A stretch of DNA of 60,103 nucleotides, taken from a virus. The stretch covers positions 1-60,103 of IMG/VR virus record IMGVR_UViG_3300027573_000033; one strand, 5' to 3'. Positions 8,574-60,103 of the stretch are shown here, in pieces. Both the position numbers and the translations under genes were made by a program. Under the pieces are notes generated by a model. It was not told the origin of the DNA. It ran no database searches and saw nothing but the letters and a program-made list of their open reading frames with translations. The stretch's first letter is position 1. The number at the start of each line of letters is the position of its first letter.

Positions 8574-9986
8574 TCAGAACCCCACGACCTTCGCCAGCTT
8601 GGCGGAGTGGGTCGCCTTTAGCACGCGGTACCTGATCACGTCCCAGAGGTGGTCCTCCCCGGCCGTGTCGATGTCCTCCTCGTCCTTATCGTCCCGCTCG
8701 AGGTTCGGCACCGTGCGGATGGTGTGATAGCACGTGTTGAACACGTAGTACCCCGGCTGGTCCACGCCCTTCCGGGCGGCGTCCAGGCGCTGTCTCATGA
8801 CCGCGCACCCGAGCACCCGGCTCCCCGGCGACTTATCCGCCTTCGTGAACGTGATCCCCTCCTTCGCCATGTCGTCCGCGATCGACGGGTGGCCCGGCAC
8901 CTTGGAGAATATCGAGTTATCCGCCGGCCCGCTCATCGCCCGGCCGAACAGCCCCTCGTCCACCTCCGTCATCCTGATCCGGCGCGCCTGCTCGCGCGCC
9001 GCCAGCCTGAGCCCCTCGTGCCTCTTGTTCGCCAGGTACAGCTCGGCGCACTGCACGATCGTCCCCCTCGGGAACCATATCGCCCGGCCGTCCCCGGTGA
9101 CGTGCTCCTCGCCGTCGCTCTCCGCGAACCAGCATGCTGCGGCCGGCGCGGACGACCCGTAGTCGTACCCCCTATCGACCTTCCACGTGTGCGGGATCTC
9201 GAACGGCTCGATCACGTGGAACTTCGGCTCCCAGACGTCGCTGAACATGCCGCCGCTGATGAGCCCCCAGTCCCCGTTCAGCATCGCCTCGACCAGGGCG
9301 CCCGACCCCAGGCCCTTGACGCGCTGGGCGTACTCCGGGTCGTTCTGCAGGAGCACCTTGTTATCGTGCAACTTCGCCCCGACGTACTCCCGGAGCATCC
9401 CGCCCTCGTCCTCGGGCGCCCGGAACGTGTTCCCCTGCCCGTGATCCACCCACCCGGACTTGAAGAAGTGATGCCCCACGCCCCCGGGGTTCGCCGTGTA
9501 CAGTATCCGCGGGAACAGCCCCCTCCACTTATCCGGCACCTTCAGGGAGCCGAGCCGGACGCGAGATCGGAGGAACCTGACCATATCCGGGGTGAAGTGC
9601 GTCGCCTCGTCGATGCAGAGGAGCCCGATCTGCGCCCCCTGGTGCTGGTATATGTCGCTCTCGTACTGCGAGTGCGCCAGCTGGATCCTGGAGCCGTTCC
9701 AGAAGTTGAACGAGTTATCGCTCTTGCTGTACGTGACGTCCCCGGAGTCCAGGAGCGAGTGCAGCATCTCGAGGTAGCCGCCCGGCGTATATATGTGATT
9801 CGCCAGGACCTCCTTGAACGTCCTCCGGAACAGGTACGTGATCAGCCCCGGGATCTCCGCGCTGAAAACGATCGAGGCGACGCGCACCAGGTAGCTCTTG
9901 CCCCCGCCCAGCGCTCCGCCGTACAGGATCTCGGTCGCCGGGGTCATCAGGGCCCGCCGCTGCTGCGGGTACAGGCTGAACTCCAA
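8574..9986 (-). CDS. terL: Terminase large subunit (packaging ATPase/nuclease)
   Basis: 470 aa. Walker A is GGALGGGKS at residues 23-31 and Walker B is LLCIDEAT near 122-129. A coupling segment YTANPGGVGHHF follows, and the C-terminal nuclease fold starts with VDRGYDYGSSAP. It powers DNA translocation and cuts concatemers. The only in-frame start at the expected position is TTG at 9986; the next Met (9947) would cut the conserved N-terminus, so TTG is chosen with some doubt. Confidence 0.93.
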   Translation of the reverse strand: MEFSLYPQQRRALMTPATEILYGGALGGGKSYLVRVASIVFSAEIPGLITYLFRRTFKEVLANHIYTPGGYLEMLHSLLDSGDVTYSKSDNSFNFWNGSRIQLAHSQYESDIYQHQGAQIGLLCIDEATHFTPDMVRFLRSRVRLGSLKVPDKWRGLFPRILYTANPGGVGHHFFKSGWVDHGQGNTFRAPEDEGGMLREYVGAKLHDNKVLLQNDPEYAQRVKGLGSGALVEAMLNGDWGLISGGMFSDVWEPKFHVIEPFEIPHTWKVDRGYDYGSSAPAAACWFAESDGEEHVTGDGRAIWFPRGTIVQCAELYLANKRHEGLRLAAREQARRIRMTEVDEGLFGRAMSGPADNSIFSKVPGHPSIADDMAKEGITFTKADKSPGSRVLGCAVMRQRLDAARKGVDQPGYYVFNTCYHTIRTVPNLERDDKDEEDIDTAGEDHLWDVIRYRVLKATHSAKLAKVVGF

Positions 9987-11090: not shown

Positions 11091-11456
11091 CAACGATCCT
11101 GGATCCATGATTAGGGGCATACTTCATAAGTTGTTGTTTTATATAGGTATTTATAGCGCACCTAGGGAGTTCAAAAAGTAAGTTCATATATGGATACTAG
11201 CTAGGCTGGCCGGAACTGACCTGCCATCAGTAGGAGCGCTCCGGTGCGCATAGTGTGTCATACCCTACTGTTAGTTCTGACAGTTCTTGGGAGGACGTAA
11301 CACGCATCAAGCCCCAAGCACTACGCCCGACGCATTTCGCCCCCTCGGCCGACGGGCCAGGCAGTTGCACACAAAGTCGTCCCCGTCGAAAAAATGCCCC
11401 CGGAACTGGGTCGTATACCACCCAGGATAAGGGCCCCATGCATCGATCGTTTCGTG
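11091..11456. other. Intergenic segment without convincing gene
   Basis: About 365 bp. The left half is AT-rich and contains an ATGATTAGGGG element like those upstream of the early promoters. The right half (11230-11450) is GC-rich, with short ORFs on both strands that overlap each other and lack ribosome binding sites. It differs in composition from the repeat array that follows. I see no RNA gene in it. Confidence 0.5.
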
Positions 11457-11471
11457 TGAGAATGATTATCA
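11457..11471. promoter_or_regulatory. Fur-box-like palindrome, left copy
   Basis: Sequence TGAGAATGATTATCA. On the opposite strand it matches the 7-1-7 Fur motif TGATAATnATTATCA at all fixed positions but one. It sits 5 bp before the first 38-bp repeat. CATCGATCG occurs just outside it (11441-11449), and the same string lies just outside the right copy. Confidence 0.55.
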
Positions 11472-11475
11472 TTTC

Positions 11476-11704
11476 TAATAGTACATTATTTTAGTCAAGT
11501 ATATGGGTTTATAATAATAGTACATTATTTTAGTCAAGTATTTACGTTTACGTAATAGTACATTATTTTAGTCAAGTATTTATGTTTACATAATAGTACA
11601 TTATTTTAGTCAAGTATTTATGTTTACATAATAGTACATTATTTTAGTCAAGTATTTATGTTTACATAATAGTACATTATTTTAGTCAAGTATATTGATT
11701 TACT
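11476..11704. repeat. Six tandem copies of a 38-bp AT-rich repeat
   Basis: Units begin at 11476, 11515, 11553, 11591, 11629 and 11667 (period 39, then 38). Each starts TAATAGTACATTATTTTAG and continues TCAAGTAT; the central four are nearly identical and the end copies are degenerate in their last third. There are no unique spacers, so it is not CRISPR. An iteron array, for example for replication or partition-like protein binding, is the most natural reading. Confidence 0.9.
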
Positions 11705-11719
11705 TATTACTAATGAGAA

Positions 11720-11734
11720 TGATAATCATTATCA
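11720..11734. promoter_or_regulatory. Fur-box-like palindrome, right copy
   Basis: Sequence TGATAATCATTATCA, a perfect match to the 7-1-7 Fur motif. It lies 15 bp after the last repeat unit and overlaps CATCGATCG on its outer side. With the left copy it brackets the array in mirrored arrangement. No iron-related gene is adjacent. Confidence 0.65.
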
Positions 11735-11746
11735 TCGATCGATAAA

Positions 11747-11777
11747 ATAATAGCTGACTAAATTAGTCAGCTATTAT
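11747..11777. promoter_or_regulatory. 31-bp perfect inverted repeat
   Basis: Arms of 15 bp (ATAATAGCTGACTAA and its complement) around a single A at 11762. Its core TGACTAAATTAGTCA shares TTAGTCA with each 38-bp unit, so one protein may bind both. No T-run follows, which argues against a simple terminator, although it lies just past the stop of the 51-aa minus-strand ORF. Confidence 0.75.
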
Positions 11778-12384: not shown

Positions 12385-12729
12385 ATGAATACCGAAAGCA
12401 CCGTTCAGGAACTGGCAGTAAAGGTCGAAGGCATGATCGAAGGTCTGCCGGAGAGCGCAAAGGTACACGAACTGACCGCGAAGTTGAACGAGGTCATCGC
12501 GCACCTGAACAAGATGCCGAAGGCAAGGGATCGTGGGCCGGAGAGCTCGCGGACGATGGTCGAGGAAGACGCCAAGAGGATCTGCCTCGGGGATCTCGCA
12601 ACTCTCAGTCACACGAAGGCCGCCGAGGCGTTGGGACTCAGCTACGGACAGGTTTACTCGGCCCGTAAGGGGTTCACGTTCAAGGCAGTCTACAAGGAGG
12701 CAGTGAAGGCCGGAAAGATCAGGGACTGA
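12385..12729 (+). CDS. Putative DNA-binding regulator, paralogue 1
   Basis: 114 aa; GCGAGGT lies 4 nt before ATG 12385. The N-terminal half is helical (residues 5-45). The C-terminal half contains ARDRGPESSRTM, then SHTKAAEALGLSYGQVYSAR, which has the length and pattern of a helix-turn-helix, and ends in a basic FTFKAVYKEAVKAGK. The second half is almost identical to that of the gene at 13624. Both have matching promoters and strong terminators, as expected for highly expressed, self-regulated control proteins. Related phage proteins are known only as conserved hypotheticals; the DNA-binding role is inferred. Confidence 0.7.
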   Translation: MNTESTVQELAVKVEGMIEGLPESAKVHELTAKLNEVIAHLNKMPKARDRGPESSRTMVEEDAKRICLGDLATLSHTKAAEALGLSYGQVYSARKGFTFKAVYKEAVKAGKIRD

Positions 12730-13574: not shown

Positions 13575-13623
13575 TAAAAATGTGAGCAGGCAATCCCGCC
13601 TCTCACGAAACGAGGAGTTCAGA

Positions 13624-13944
13624 ATGGACCACACCACGGAAATCGCCGAATCCCCCGCCCTCAAGGCCCTCGACCCCCACGCGAAGCTGCCGGAGGTCGT
13701 GGCGGCCCTGAACGCGGTCATCGCGCGGCTCAACGCCCGCCGCGACCGCGGGCCCGAGTCCACCCGGGTCATGACGGAGGCCGACGCCAGGGCGATCAGC
13801 CTGGGCGAGCAGCGGGCCCTGTCCCACACGAAGGCGGCCGAGGCCCTGGGGCTCTCCTACGGGCAGGTCTACTCGGCCCGCAAGGGGTTCACCTTCAAGG
13901 CCGTGTACAAGGAGGCCGTGAAGGCGGGCCTCACCAAGGAGTAG
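13624..13944 (+). CDS. Putative DNA-binding regulator, paralogue 2
   Basis: 106 aa; GAGGAG lies 6 nt before ATG 13624 (a longer GTG start at 13582 is less likely). From RDRGPEST onward it matches paralogue 1 nearly residue for residue (SHTKAAEALGLSYGQVYSAR, then KGFTFKAVYKEAVKAG), while the N-terminal 45 residues have diverged. This suggests a conserved DNA-reading half and a divergent partner or oligomerisation half. Flanked by its own promoter and a very strong terminator. Confidence 0.7.
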   Translation: MDHTTEIAESPALKALDPHAKLPEVVAALNAVIARLNARRDRGPESTRVMTEADARAISLGEQRALSHTKAAEALGLSYGQVYSARKGFTFKAVYKEAVKAGLTKE

Positions 13945-15800: not shown

Positions 15801-15842
15801 TTGTTCCTCGCTGGTTGAGTGCGCGTAATTTCGCACATTCTT

Positions 15843-15871
15843 ATTATATCACACCCGAGCTAGGATGTACA
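15843..15871 (-). promoter_or_regulatory. Early promoter, TGTACA-17-TATAAT
   Basis: Minus-strand TGTACA (15871-15866), 17-bp spacer containing CCTAGCTCGGG, TATAAT (15848-15843). Same architecture as the other spacer-palindrome promoters here, with one palindrome mismatch. A small hairpin GTGCG/CGCAC lies at the predicted 5' end of the RNA. Confidence 0.75.
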
Positions 15872-15889
15872 CACCCTAATTCTCTGCCA

Positions 15890-17138: not shown

Positions 17139-17182
17139 GCGATGGGCTCCTTGCGCTTATGCGCGACGTTGCGCATATAGTA

Positions 17183-17211
17183 ATTATAACACGCCCGAGC
17201 TCGGAAGTACA
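17183..17211 (-). promoter_or_regulatory. Early promoter with CCGAGCTCGG spacer
   Basis: Minus-strand TGTACT (17211-17206), 17 bp containing the perfect CCGAGCTCGG palindrome, TATAAT (17188-17183). The predicted start near 17176 falls in a 7-bp-arm hairpin (17158-17177). Confidence 0.85.
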
Positions 17212-17232
17212 CGCCCTAATTCGCAGCCTCGA

Positions 17233-19662: not shown

Positions 19663-19708
19663 GTGACCTCCGATAGTTCGGGTCGGCGCGAGATTGCACC
19701 GTATACTG

Positions 19709-19737
19709 ATTATATCACATCCGAGCTCGGGAGTACA
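19709..19737 (-). promoter_or_regulatory. Early promoter with CCGAGCTCGG spacer (proximal)
   Basis: Minus-strand TGTACT (19737-19732), 17 bp with perfect CCGAGCTCGG, TATAAT (19714-19709). About 40 nt upstream of ATG 19662. Preceded by a TTTGGGTG element. Confidence 0.85.
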
Positions 19738-19810
19738 CACCCAAATTCCTGAACCATGACCCGCGCATGTGGCTGTTTAAACAATCGCGCGCGCCCGCGT
19801 GTGCGCGCGT

Positions 19811-19839
19811 ATTATACCGCATCCGAGCTCGGAAGTACA
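19811..19839 (-). promoter_or_regulatory. Early promoter with CCGAGCTCGG spacer (distal, tandem)
   Basis: Minus-strand TGTACT (19839-19834), 17 bp with perfect TCCGAGCTCGGA, TATAAT (19816-19811). It lies 102 bp behind the proximal copy. No gene lies between them, only an alternating CG tract (19787-19809) and a PmeI-like GTTTAAAC. Divergent from the plus promoter at 19882. Confidence 0.8.
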
Positions 19840-19881
19840 CACCCTAATTCGCAGCCATGATCGAGGCCATGATTAGGGCTG

Positions 19882-45754: not shown

Positions 45755-48700
45755 TTGCGTGGCGCCGCCGCGGCAGCTGTGGTTTCGAGGGCTTGCACTA
45801 TAGTCTCTGGAGAATCACGTGTACCCTTGGCGATGGCACGCAATAGGGCGGCCACCTCGTCGTGCATATTCTGGATGTCCTGCTGTGATGCGATCGGCGA
45901 TTCGCGTGGCATGGCCGCGGCGATCACGGCGTCGTTGGAGTTCGGCTCCGGCCCGCCGGTCTGGGCCGGTGCGGCTAGCGCGGTCAGCGCGCTGACCACC
46001 GACTGCCATATGCGGTTATAGTCGCTAGTGCTGGCGAACATATCACGAGCCACCTTCAGGTAAGCGTCAGCCGCCCCCTGCAGGTCGCGCAGCGCGTCGA
46101 TGTCCCCGCCCTGCGCCCTCCCAAGCAGGTCGAGATAGTCCTTCTGCGCCGCGGCGAGCTTGGCCGACGGCGATAGCGGCGAGATGTCGTCACGCAGCGC
46201 AATGTCCTTGAGGTACTGTCTCAGGGATTCTTTGATCCGCTCAAGCTCGGTCAGCGTATTTTCTACGCCGCCGGAGATGCCCTCTAGGATCTCCTTCCAG
46301 CGATCGTCGAAGGTCTTGAGGATGGCGTCCATGACCGGCTGGTTGCCCGCGAACCTCTTAAGCATGTCATCGCGCCACTTCTCCAGCTCGAACCGCTGCT
46401 CGGCCAGGGCAGGACCGTACTGAGCCGATAGCAGGATGAACTTCGCCAGGTCCCCGGCCGACTTAGTGCTCAGATCCTTCAGCTTATCGATCAGCTCCAT
46501 CAGGCCCTGGTACTCGCCGCTACCGGCCTGCACCGTGCTCAGCTGAGAGGTGAACCAGTCGATCTGCTGAGCGATCATAGTCAGTTTCAACGACAGCTGA
46601 TCGCCCATCGTGCCGCTCATCTGCCCGACCGTATCGTCTATCATAGAGGTGACGCGATCGAACTCCGAGCGCATCGTCTTTCCGATACTGCCCAGGTCGA
46701 CGACGTTGGACAGCGCGTCCGACACCTCGTCTATGGACTCGGCGGCGTCCTGAGCGGTGCCGTTGACCCGGACGAACACGCCGGCCAGCCGCATGAGGGC
46801 CACGTACATATCCCTCTCGGCCGGAATGGTCAGGTTGAGCCCGTTTAAGATTTCCAGGAACCCTGCGTGAGTCTCCGGCACGGCCAGGCCCAGGTCATCG
46901 AAGCCGCTATTCAGGGCCTCTAGGTCCGCCGCGCCGCGCTGGGCGTTCGTGTAGAAGTTATCCAGCAGGAACCCGATCGAGTCGAGGGCCGCGCCCATGC
47001 CGCCGAAGCCCTCGGCCAGGGCGCTCAATACGACCGGATCCACCTCGTTTAGGGCGTACCCGAAGTACTCGAAGGCCTCCGTAGTGGCCGTGATATACTC
47101 GGTCGCCTGCTGTGCGGTGCCGTTCAGGGTGACGAAGGCCGGGGCCAGAGATGTCATCACCTCGTACGTGGCTCGCCCGGCTTCGGTGGTCAGGTTCAGG
47201 CCGCCGAGTAACGCCATGAACTCGGTGTGGGTCTTGGGCACCTCCATGCTTATCCCGGCGAACCCATCGGTCAGCTGCGCCTGGACCGTCGCCAGCTTAT
47301 CGGCGTCCGTCGTGAAGTTCTGTCCGATAAAGGCGAAGCGCTCGGCCATGGCCTGGGCGCCGCCGAACACGTCCACGAACGCCTCCAACTGGGACGCGTC
47401 TAGCGCCTCAAGCTGGGGCTGCAGGCTGATCACGCTCTTGACCGCCGTCTGGAGGGCCGCCCCCATATCCAGCATCTTGGTGATGTCGGCCTCGGTGGCC
47501 TCGGAGACCTTCACGCTGTCGAACAGCGTCGACAGGTACGTGGGCAGGTCCGAGCCCTGGATGGCGGCGAACAGCATTCGCTTAGTCTCGAGGGCGATCC
47601 TGGCGGTGTACTCCGCAGGATCTCTGCCCACGTCGATGTCGGCGGCGTTATACACGACCCTATCGCCGACCATCGCCTGAGCGCTGAGCAGAGTTCCGGC
47701 GTCGCCCTTCGGGTCCACGGCGCCGCCGATGGAGAACTGAGCCGTACCGGCCTTGATGCCCAGGCCGCGAGCCGCCTGGATGTATCCGGTGGCGATACTG
47801 TCTGACACCTTCTGATACTCCGCGTCGGCCGTGCTTAGCGTGAATAGCCGGCCCATATCGCCCTTGTCCACCTGCCCCGTCTTGACATCGGCCCTCGATG
47901 ACGCGGACCCCTCGGTCTTCACACCGCCGCCGGACTTAAAAAGAGACCCTACTAGGGAGCCCAAGGCCGATCCGATCATGGCTCCGATAGGACCCCAGAT
48001 AGACCCAATAGCCCCGCCTATTGTGCCGCCGACCTGCGCGCCGGTCTTGCGCCTCTCGCTTACGAAGGACGATACTAGCGATCCTATGGCGAACCCAGTA
48101 CCGGCACCGGCCGCGGCCTGTCCGAGCTGATCCCCGGTGGAAAAGAACGGCAATCCGCCCTCGGGCGACTGAACCCCACCGCCCCACTGGTTGTTAGACA
48201 GACTAAACCCGGCCCCGAACGGGTTGCTGAACCCGCCAACCATCTTCGACAGTCCGCCGAACAGCCCGGCGCCGCCCCCAACACCGCCACCGCCGCCGGC
48301 GAAGGCCGAGCCGGACCCGCCGAAGATGCCGCCGATAATGGCTTTGATGGCCGGCTGCATGATGTTCGTCTTGAACATGTTCAGCAGCACGTCTCGGAAG
48401 TTCTTGGCGAAACTCTTGCCGTCCTCGAACCCCCTCATCAGGGCGTCGGATATGGTGTCGGAGATGGAGTCGCCCATCTTCTCGAATTCGGTGGCCGTCT
48501 TCTTTAGCCCGTCGCCCGTCGCCTTAGACAGGTTATCCGCCCACTGCAATTCGATGTTACTCGTATTCAGTGCACGAAGATCCTTCTTGTTCTGGATAAG
48601 TTCCTTAAGCTTCTCTGATTCCTCTGTACACGCCAGGGCGCTCTGCTTTGTAGCCAGCGTAGCCTCAAGAGTGGCGATCTCTGCGTCGATACGGGCGTTC

Positions 48701-55711: not shown

Positions 55712-57372
55712 GGTTCCTCCGAAGTATCAATCTCACGATCCTCTATGTCAAGGACCAGCTCTCTAATTTCGCCATCCAGCGCGAGCGATCTGTCATCAGC
55801 TGTCAGGGTCAGGGTCCTATTCGGATCAGGTATAGACCCGTATGCCACGACCGAACCGGCCAGGGCCTGCGCTATGACCTCGGCGATAAACCCGGCGGCC
55901 TGACTAGCGGCCGATACGGCTCCTGATATGAACGATGCTGCGACCTCGGATGTGACCCCGATCGAGGATCCGTGACCTTCGGTCGACCCAGACACCGGCA
56001 CGGATGCGACCGTTACGACCTGACCACTAGCCACCGCTCCGCTACCGCCCTCGGCCGCGCCCGCGATGACCGATGCGGAGACGGACTGCACCTGTCCGGA
56101 TACCTGGCTATCGGCGATCGGTCCGCCGGCTATGGCCGAAATGGCGGCCGAGGTCATCGCCCCGTTCACTTGCGAAGAGGCCGTTGCGGATCCGGCAACC
56201 AGCGCAACTGTGGTGACGATGACCTGGCCATTGGCTGTAGCGCCCGAAGTGCCCTCCGCCGTCCCGGGCAACGCAGTTATCGTCGCGGTCTGCGTAGCTG
56301 CTGTCGTCTGGGCATCGGCGCTCGGCGCACCCGCCACCGCAGAGGCCGTAGCGGTGACCGTGGCCCCGTCAGCAGTGCCCGCCGACTCGCCCGTAGCGGT
56401 CCCCGCCACTGCGGTGATCGTCGCGGTGACCGTGGCAGCCGTCGTCTGCGAATCAGCCGTGACGCTGCCCACGATGGGCGAGATCGTCGCAGTGACCGTC
56501 GCACCCGTCGCTTCTACCGAGGGCGCTCCACTGACCGCGCTGATCGTCGCGGTGTTGGTGACGCCCGTCGCTTGCGCATCTGCCGTCGGCGATCCGGCGA
56601 CCGCGCTGATCGTGGCAGTGACCGTCGCGCTCGGCGCATCTCCGCCCGAGGAGCCCGTCGCCTGACCTTCGATGGCGCTGATCGTGGCGGTGACCGTCGC
56701 CGCTGCCGCTTGCGAGTCCGCCGTCGCGCTACCGGTGACCGCGCTGATGGTTGCGGTGACCGTAGCCGCTACGTTCTGTCCGTCGCCCGTCGCGCTGCCG
56801 GCGACTGCAGAGGAGGTGACGCTGCTGGTGACGCCCGTTGCCTGCGCGTCAGCGGTCGGGCTCCCCGAGATCGCGCTAATCGTCACCGTCTCCGTGGCGC
56901 CCGGCGCATCGTTGCCCGCCGTAGCGGAGCCAGCGATAGCCGAGATGGTGGCGCTGTTGGTGACGGCGACGGTTTGCGCATCTGCCGTGGGACTACCTAC
57001 TACAGCACTGATCGTAGCGGTGACTGTTGCGGCGGTGTTCTGTCCGTCCCCGGTGGCGCTGCCCGCGATGGCGCTCGCGGTCGCGGTATTGGTGACGCCC
57101 GTCGCGCTGACATCCGCCGCGCCAGTGACCGCGTTCGCAGTAGCGGTGACCGTCGCCGCCGTGTTCTGCGAGGACGCGGTAGCGCTGCCGACGACCGCGC
57201 TCGCCGTGACGCTGACCGTCGCGCCCGGCGCCGTGGCATCGCCCGATGCCCCCTCGGGAACCTCCAGCTCAATCCACGAGACCTCCGCCCGGTACGCGAC
57301 CTTGCCCGGCAGCCACAGCTGCGAGCGCGGCGCGTAGTGCCGGCGGAATGGCGGGCGAAAGACGTGCGACAT
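55699..57372 (-). CDS. Repetitive beta-structure virion protein
   Basis: 557 aa. After an N-terminal anchor (MSHVFRPPFRRHYAPR) come roughly 18-20 imperfect repeats of about 19-23 residues around TVTATISAVAGSATADAQ, from residue 45 to 480: a low-complexity Ala/Thr/Val/Gly/Ser array likely to fold as a solenoid or fibre shaft. A C-terminal module holds RTLTLTADDRSLALDGEIRE. Suggests an elongated surface fibre. Repeat DNA is also near-repetitive and prone to length change. Confidence 0.75.
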   Translation of the reverse strand: MSHVFRPPFRRHYAPRSQLWLPGKVAYRAEVSWIELEVPEGASGDATAPGATVSVTASAVVGSATASSQNTAATVTATANAVTGAADVSATGVTNTATASAIAGSATGDGQNTAATVTATISAVVGSPTADAQTVAVTNSATISAIAGSATAGNDAPGATETVTISAISGSPTADAQATGVTSSVTSSAVAGSATGDGQNVAATVTATISAVTGSATADSQAAAATVTATISAIEGQATGSSGGDAPSATVTATISAVAGSPTADAQATGVTNTATISAVSGAPSVEATGATVTATISPIVGSVTADSQTTAATVTATITAVAGTATGESAGTADGATVTATASAVAGAPSADAQTTAATQTATITALPGTAEGTSGATANGQVIVTTVALVAGSATASSQVNGAMTSAAISAIAGGPIADSQVSGQVQSVSASVIAGAAEGGSGAVASGQVVTVASVPVSGSTEGHGSSIGVTSEVAASFISGAVSAASQAAGFIAEVIAQALAGSVVAYGSIPDPNRTLTLTADDRSLALDGEIRELVLDIEDREIDTSEEPWAS

Positions 57373-58615: not shown

Positions 58616-60103
58616 TTACACCGAGTACACGCCGACGCGCACCGCGCTACGGTCGGTGATGTTTGCCACGTCGGCGGAATCAACCGCCCACTCATACGTC
58701 CCGGCGGTGAAGCGTTGCACGGGATCGGCCGACCGCAATACTTCCGCCTTAAAAGTAGCGATTGCGGTTAGCGTTTCTGTAAAGCCCGTGATAGTGAACG
58801 TCGCGGCGATAGGCCCGGCCGCCCCCTGTATACGGTCCTCCGTCGCCTGCATGTCAAGCGACGGCCCGGCGTTTTCGCGGATCGTGTAGCCAGTGCCGGC
58901 GGCCTTCGCCACCTGATAATTCGGGTCGCCTGTCACACCGAATATATATTGCCCGCTTGTTGCCGTCGTAACGTTCCCGCTAGTTACTGCGTCCGTGCCG
59001 CCGCCCGGATTTGCTTGCACCTGTGCCGCGTATTGATCACGCTCGCCCGCCCCGCTTACCTCGTGCACGATCATGCTTTTACGACTCGCGTTACCGCTTA
59101 ACGTAACCGTCACTGTGCACGAACCAGACGTGCCGGCGATGGCGTGGAATACCACCAAATTCCCGAACTCACCAGATAAAACATCTTCAGTCGTGTAGGT
59201 GCTACTGCGGTCGTCGACCACGCTCGACAGCGTGTAGGACGCAGCGCCGTCCCATATGACAGCACCAACGATTAGGTTCCCGCTTACCACGTTGCCCGGG
59301 AGCGTTACCGCGATATTAGGATCGCCGGTAAAGGCTTCTTCGGATATTTCCGATTGCACGAATTCCGGTTGCGTGGCCTCATACATCCTCGCCTCAACGC
59401 CCGCGCCTCCGGTCAGTTGCTTGACGCGATAGCGGACGATGAAGCCTTCATCGGTGCCCGGGTCGTCGTACGTCGGCACGTCGTAGGTGTCGAGCAGACC
59501 CGCTGCCGAAGCAGAGACGTAATCGCTATCACTGGCGATTTCCTCGTCTACGCATTCAAAATTAGGCCCCGGTACAGTCGGCCCGCTCGCGCCTTGCGAC
59601 GGCGATGCAATCAACGTCAGGTCGAACGTCCCCGCAACATCTGGCTCCGGAGAATCGTTGCCACCTAGCGGAACGTACATGGTGGGGATGCTGATGCTAT
59701 AAGGGCTCGCCCCCTCCGCTAGAGCCTCCACGTTGGCCTGCGACAGAGCGACGCCGTCCCACACTGCGAAGCGCGCTGCCATCCCGTTGAGTGAGATGTA
59801 GTCATTCGCATTAAACCGCAATGCCCCGATGGTAAGCAGGTCCAGCCCCGTCGGTCGGGTGTATGGCGCCTCAGTGCTGTTCGCCCAATCACCATCCAGC
59901 ACGACGCGGTGCCGGTAGGTGCCCGCGTCATTACGACAGATGTGCGCGACGTGAAACCATGTGTCCACGGGTGCAGTATTCGTCGTTATAGATGAATCAA
60001 AATTTGGCGTCTGTGTTGCCCGGATCGCGTCGGTCGTATGCCGACGAATCTCCCAATACTGATCTGCATCTGCGTCGCCTAATGACCACAGACACATCGC
60101 CCC
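58616..60103 (-). CDS. LamG adhesin, C-terminal part and alternative allele (runs off right edge)
   Basis: Open frame from base 60103 to stop 58616, entering mid-LamG (first window residues GAMCLWSLGDADADQYW). Contains a partial LamG, the TYDVPTYDDPGTDEG domain shared with the left-edge gene, SSVVDDRSSTYTTEDVLSG, a second beta module (SGQYIFGVTGDPNYQVA), and C-terminal RVGVYSV. Segment 58616-59256 probably belongs to the main genome; 59257-60103 is a divergent alternative to 128-1000. Confidence 0.8.
   Translation of the reverse strand, partial: GAMCLWSLGDADADQYWEIRRHTTDAIRATQTPNFDSSITTNTAPVDTWFHVAHICRNDAGTYRHRVVLDGDWANSTEAPYTRPTGLDLLTIGALRFNANDYISLNGMAARFAVWDGVALSQANVEALAEGASPYSISIPTMYVPLGGNDSPEPDVAGTFDLTLIASPSQGASGPTVPGPNFECVDEEIASDSDYVSASAAGLLDTYDVPTYDDPGTDEGFIVRYRVKQLTGGAGVEARMYEATQPEFVQSEISEEAFTGDPNIAVTLPGNVVSGNLIVGAVIWDGAASYTLSSVVDDRSSTYTTEDVLSGEFGNLVVFHAIAGTSGSCTVTVTLSGNASRKSMIVHEVSGAGERDQYAAQVQANPGGGTDAVTSGNVTTATSGQYIFGVTGDPNYQVAKAAGTGYTIRENAGPSLDMQATEDRIQGAAGPIAATFTITGFTETLTAIATFKAEVLRSADPVQRFTAGTYEWAVDSADVANITDRSAVRVGVYSV
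59130..59256. repeat. 127-bp exact match to bases 1-127
   Basis: Second copy of the junction overlap. Upstream of it (59129 and below) is unique in the window; downstream similarity to 128-420 continues with scattered substitutions, then falls off. Confidence 0.85.

Follow-up and report, generated by a model that had tools for sequence, protein, structure and literature searches.

Fur-type palindromes as candidate host-protein sites at the packaging terminus of a phage genome

Why should a phage genome carry two palindromes that resemble the binding site of the iron sensor Fur on either side of a tandem array, in a region where no iron gene is near? The window, i.e., the whole stretch of DNA analysed here, is a virus record of 60,103 bases. 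A sequence-only reading had described in it a perfect 7-1-7 site, TGATAATCATTATCA, at 11720-11734 and a left palindrome with one mismatch, TGAGAATGATTATCA, at 11457-11471. Both sites are present as described, as is the lack of a nearby iron gene. In addition, a second 7-1-7 motif with two mismatches at 11714 overlaps the right site and generates an extended box, GAGAATGATAATCATTATC. The two candidates are as follows.

11455-11473, no strand: candidate Fur box 1, TGTGAGAATGATTATCATT, matching AATGANAATNATTNTCATT at 14 of 16 positions, with the predicted DNA tip about 45 bp away
11712-11736, no strand: candidate Fur box 2, overlapping 7-1-7 motifs AATGAGAATGATAATCATTATCATC

Box 2 agrees at 18 of 19 positions with the E. 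coli Fur box GATAATGATAATCATTATC, and box 1 is weaker (14-15 of 19). By sequence the window sites have the make-up of Fur boxes (at least three GATAAT-type hexamers/7-1-7 dyad); by position, they do not overlap the promoter of an iron-regulated gene. Allowing up to three mismatches, the 7-1-7 pattern occurs three times in the whole window against 0.45 expected, a count reached by none of 100 shuffles. Similarly, AATGANAATNATTNTCATT with up to two mismatches yields three overlapping matches in the window, all at these boxes, while its reversed control yields none there. The two sites had been read as mirror images in inverted arrangement; each box is itself palindromic and the two are also direct repeats of one another (16 of 17 positions, 257 bp apart), so that an inverted arrangement adds no further information. 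As for CATCGATCG, placed on the outer side of each site, it does occur in the same orientation at 11441-11449 and 11733-11741, but the right copy overlaps the box.

Between the boxes lies the reported 38-bp array (5.7 copies at 11476-11693, with six exact 26-bp cores), set in a 1.3-kb AT-rich gap that has minus-strand late genes on one side and plus-strand small genes on the other. The array and its neighbours are listed below.

11476-11693, plus strand: 38-bp direct array with cores AATAGTACATTATTTTAGTCAAGTAT; the reverse strand carries TTGACTAAAAT
11747-11777, no strand: perfect 15-1-15 palindrome, ATAATAGCTGACTAA/TTAGTCAGCTATTAT, with the TGACTAA motif of the array
12385-12729, plus strand: gene for a small HTH-like DNA-binding protein (weak HTH_23 match, below cut-off), adjoining the array
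13582-13944, plus strand: paralogue of the HTH-like gene at 12385-12729, to which it is 86.5% identical over a stretch of 104 bp

The 15-1-15 palindrome is AT-rich and shows no terminator pattern, and Rfam gave no match to a known structured RNA. Other repeats occur in the window. A 66-bp unit is present in four tandem copies at 56533-56805. Four dispersed 69-nt repeats (62-78%) at 15820-15888, 17160-17228, 19686-19754 and 19788-19856 share a TATTATA..CA..CCGAGCTCGGAAGTACACACCCTAATTC-like sequence and are perhaps phage promoters. Positions 1-536 and 59130-59665 form a direct repeat, 86% identical, at the two contig ends, which is either a duplicated gene segment or a strain-variant assembly overlap.

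The relatives of this phage were collected through its terminase large subunit (TerL), which shares 65% identity with the Xanthomonas phage Xp15 protein and 63-64% with those of the Acinetobacter phages Effie, HHU4 and MD-2021a. A TerL profile search gave 28 viral loci; no TerL relatives were found in cellular genomes, and no copies of the Acinetobacter phage region were found in plasmids. The comparison brought out a terminus element on the late-gene side of the slot upstream of TerL.

8574-9986, minus strand: TerL gene, the anchor for finding relatives
11389-11437, minus strand: bipartite terminus element GGGGCCC-N-CCAGTTCCGGGGGCATTTTTT, with 42 bp between GGGGCC and ATTTTT
11409/11410, no strand: predicted end of the direct terminal repeat and right DNA tip, from alignment to the Effie repeat end

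GGGGCC-(42-45 bp)-ATTTTT stands on the late-gene side in 17 of the 17 phages compared, the Xp15 version being GGGCCCCC. Counterparts of the 12385-12729 gene adjoin the element in Xp15 and in the Acinetobacter phages. The Effie record has a direct terminal repeat, exact over 3,598 bp, whose end falls inside the element, just before CCAGTTTC, so the element marks the terminus, and the window tip is predicted from this one relative. Since such a repeat is present at both ends, the inner end of its left copy corresponds at the same time to the outermost right end of the virion DNA. A cos of the lambda type was considered and rejected for this family, which has the GGGGCC-42/45-ATTTTT element and, in Effie, the 3.6-kb terminal repeat instead of a cosQ (GGGTCCTTTCCGG) and cohesive ends.

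The Fur-like palindromes recur at this element. Seven relatives, with TerL about 60-70% identical, carry them just inside it, and many TerL loci have several in the AT-rich slot, often in tandem arrays of their own. Measured from the predicted tip to the end of the nearest box, the distance is 45-48 bp in the window and ranges from 31 to 58 bp across the window, L025, L026, L035, L039, L045, L049 and L050. In MD-2021a and HHU4 the nearest box is 122 bp from the predicted terminus, in L036 the boxes are more than 350 bp from the element, and in Effie, Xp15, L030, L038, L041 and L032 no box was found near it. Right ends of P2, T7 and phiKO2 also gave no palindrome; thus, a terminal box is not essential. 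Positive relatives hold 1-6 sites of at least 15/19 within 1.5 kb, against 0.003-0.04 in shuffles; L049 has none at this cut-off, but has 7-1-7 cores of 12/12 and 11/12. Because members of the family share ancestry, these counts are not fully independent.

The array shows a different pattern. Apart from the window, the only contig found with the 38-bp unit is L001, which is 99.99% identical and hence the same phage, so that it gives no independent conservation. The slot of the relatives is filled by unrelated arrays, with units of 54 bp in L025/L048, 35 bp in L039/L040 and 36 bp in L045, and others in L026, L035, L036 and L050; TTGACTAWW is a second motif common to the arrays of the window, L025, L026 and L049. 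The view of a Fur-bracketed iteron or replication array as a conserved unit is therefore not supported: it is the box beside the terminus that recurs, and not the bracketing. An iteron replication origin was likewise rejected, as the repeat unit changes completely between relatives and no initiator was identified. The Acinetobacter phages and relatives have a further Fur-like box just past the HTH-cluster terminator (L014 29617, L017 2619, L005 2356, L025 7330, L026 2132, L049 5997).

The profile built on 56 sites, most of which come from relatives but which include those of the window and a few weak ones, reads AAATGA[T/C/G]AAT[C/G]ATT[A/C/G]TCATT and is degenerate where Fur boxes are. It fits the published Fur consensus sequences, GATAATGATAATCATTATC and AATGATAATAATTATCATT (PMC7536154), and the assignment of the sites to the Fur type is well supported at the level of sequence. 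Indeed, permuted palindromes match as many genomes only when TGATAATNATTATCA is kept. In whole records, matches fall in the terminal regions of T5, SP01, PY54 and nearly all relatives scanned, against 0-1 for a reversed pattern. A chance origin is ruled out by the shuffles, the permuted palindromes, the reversed pattern and a scrambled-palindrome search.

A similar situation is also present in other phages. The sequence-only reading knew of no established precedent; comparable terminal sites are in fact carried by lambda, D3, HK97 and T5. Lambda has TGATAATCATTATCA itself immediately upstream of cosQ (about 48452-48466), with 36 bp separating it from the right tip. The palindrome is retained within about 15 bp of cosQ in 25 of 35 lambda-type contexts diverged to less than 70% identity (shuffle mean 0.07). 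The D3 site (11/12) is 59 bp from the right end, and those of HK97/HK022, at 59-60 bp, are degenerate and reach only 10/12. Sites are paired in PY54 (96-128 bp from the right end) and P840 (60-91 bp), while the N15 palindrome is degenerate. In T5 a perfect box at 9656 and weaker ones at 9552 and 9691 lie among repeats of the annotated injection-stop signal. No T5 match falls outside the terminal repeats, and the boxes are 510-670 bp from the right tip. Of 50,697 phage records searched by BLAST, 995 gave a match to a Fur palindrome, with T5-like phages, which are over-represented in the collection, in the lead; a single scrambled control gave 15. Only 20 stretches in 2.9 million viral contigs carried two close Fur cores, several of them adjoining genome ends or terminase genes. 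Paired cores were also seen in two contig groups missed by the TerL search (L056, L066, L068 and L069; L054, L057 and L067), near the TerL gene in L056, and the coding region of T5 dmp contains a Fur-like palindrome close to the left tip (L071 231). In the open-licence literature, no paper was found that describes Fur boxes at phage ends, T5 or lambda cos.

What binds these sites? The idea that the phage encodes its own Fur-like protein is not borne out, since PF01475 (Fur family) matched none of 17 records, while the control gave a match in 13 of 14 genomes. As the phages have no Fur-family gene and their terminases are unrelated, the binder would most simply be a host protein that they share. 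Fur is, to our knowledge, the one host protein with this motif, and we infer that it would bind the palindromes. The reading that we favour, at a probability of roughly 45%, is that the window palindromes are host-Fur sites at the genome's packaging terminus. The right tip would then lie about 45 bp from box 1, with box 2 and the 38-bp array continuing inward, and iron-loaded host Fur would occupy the terminal DNA as IHF does at lambda cosB, as a host factor acting on that end. The fixed distance from box to tip speaks for a function of the terminus, in entry or in packaging. Fur may act most likely when the DNA end enters a new cell, where it could hold the arriving end, anchor it or cause entry to pause, as at the T5 injection-stop signal, which is thought to work via secondary structure and/or host components (PMC13250531). 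For lambda, which end is ejected first is disputed (PMC10287942).

An action in packaging would differ in that Fur bound at the terminus acts as a roadblock, pausing the terminase motor so that the termination signal is recognised and cut. The position of the box would suit this, as it is directly beside the GGGGCC element here and directly upstream of cosQ, a packaging-termination signal (PMC4669245), in lambda-type phages. The boxes of T5, at about 500 bp from the end, do not, and work on lambda packaging has used purified terminase and IHF (PMC11868608), so that Fur seems unneeded for packaging in vitro and entry is favoured. A packaging aid is distinctly unlikely in our judgement. The earlier suggestions of Fur titration and iron sensing are conceivable, but they leave unexplained why the boxes are so closely tied to the terminus. 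In a decoy, replicating phage boxes would soak up host Fur and derepress iron uptake, thereby feeding the infection or raising receptors. Multi-copy Fur boxes do titrate Fur in the FURTA assay (PMC3145626), relatives have up to six or more boxes, and those in terminal repeats (Effie, T5, SP01) are present twice per genome. However, a decoy could sit anywhere, whereas the boxes are fixed at the terminus and the lambda right end has a single one. T5 destroys host DNA and would gain little from derepression, which leaves the decoy a rather low probability.

Repression by Fur of a promoter in the terminal region, timing early or late genes by iron status, appears the least probable of the alternatives, and very much so. 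A sigma-70-like site, TTTACT-16-GATAAT, does overlap box 2 (11699-11726); yet promoter-like sites in the region are at the level of shuffles (8 vs 7.0), the boxes are hundreds of bases from the flanking genes, and relatives have no shared promoter layout by eye. A different binder might also share the Fur motif by coincidence, such as a phage HTH protein, the terminase small subunit or a host factor. In particular, the small HTH-like gene adjoins the element in the window family, and some array sites depart from the Fur core (GATAACTATTATC, GATAATAGATATC). Against this, the motif is common to lambda, T5, D3 and Xp15-like phages with different proteins and terminases, and its degeneracy matches that of Fur; we regard such a coincidence as unlikely, to about the same degree as the decoy.

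Beyond the window, the recurrence of such sites beside the packaging end in relatives and in lambda, HK97-type and T5-type phages suggests that a landing site for the host iron sensor is common at the DNA tip of phages. More tentatively, a terminal Fur box might be a recurrent feature of tailed phages of Gram-negative hosts, such that a host Fur site at the packaging end would have been gained or retained by unrelated cos and terminal-repeat phages (lambda, D3, HK97-like, T5-like and Xp15-like); there, Fur-iron would act on DNA entry or maturation and couple infection to the iron state of the cell. If Fur binds, the well-studied lambda and T5 genomes have ends that are connected to a host metal sensor, a link that was not noted in the open-licence literature, and iron status would be connected to phage infection by a mechanism at the DNA level. 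Fur could also be the host component proposed for the T5 injection stop, and binding would make it a concrete candidate for that part; what this signal does in second-step transfer is still described as poorly understood (PMC13250531).

With the E. coli/Vibrio Fur box the window sites share core, length, hexamer overlap and degenerate positions, but they lie in non-coding DNA of a phage terminus, away from iron-gene promoters. As in FURTA, many Fur boxes are present on a replicating molecule, although those of the phages are fixed at one end. Plasmid and phage iterons are likewise direct repeats in AT-rich intergenic DNA, whereas the window unit is not conserved, has no identified initiator and lies at a packaging terminus. 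The T5 injection-stop signal likewise combines a repeat array with Fur-type palindromes, and it lies close to where the left terminal repeat ends on its inner side, as is predicted for the window sites; in the window repeats and palindromes are both present, and the terminal-repeat end is seen in the relative Effie only. In contrast, some 500 bp separate the T5 boxes from the repeat end, no sequence homology between T5 and the window was noticed, two-step entry is a trait of T5 that would be hypothetical for the window phage, and the window region lacks DnaA boxes (no TTWTNCACA in the array region and one chance-level match at 31593). Lambda cos has one box and cohesive ends, while the window family has terminal repeats and several boxes; in both, the terminus signal has a palindrome immediately upstream, 30-60 bp away from the right tip (a predicted one in the window), and the IHF site in lambda cosB provides the precedent for a host factor.
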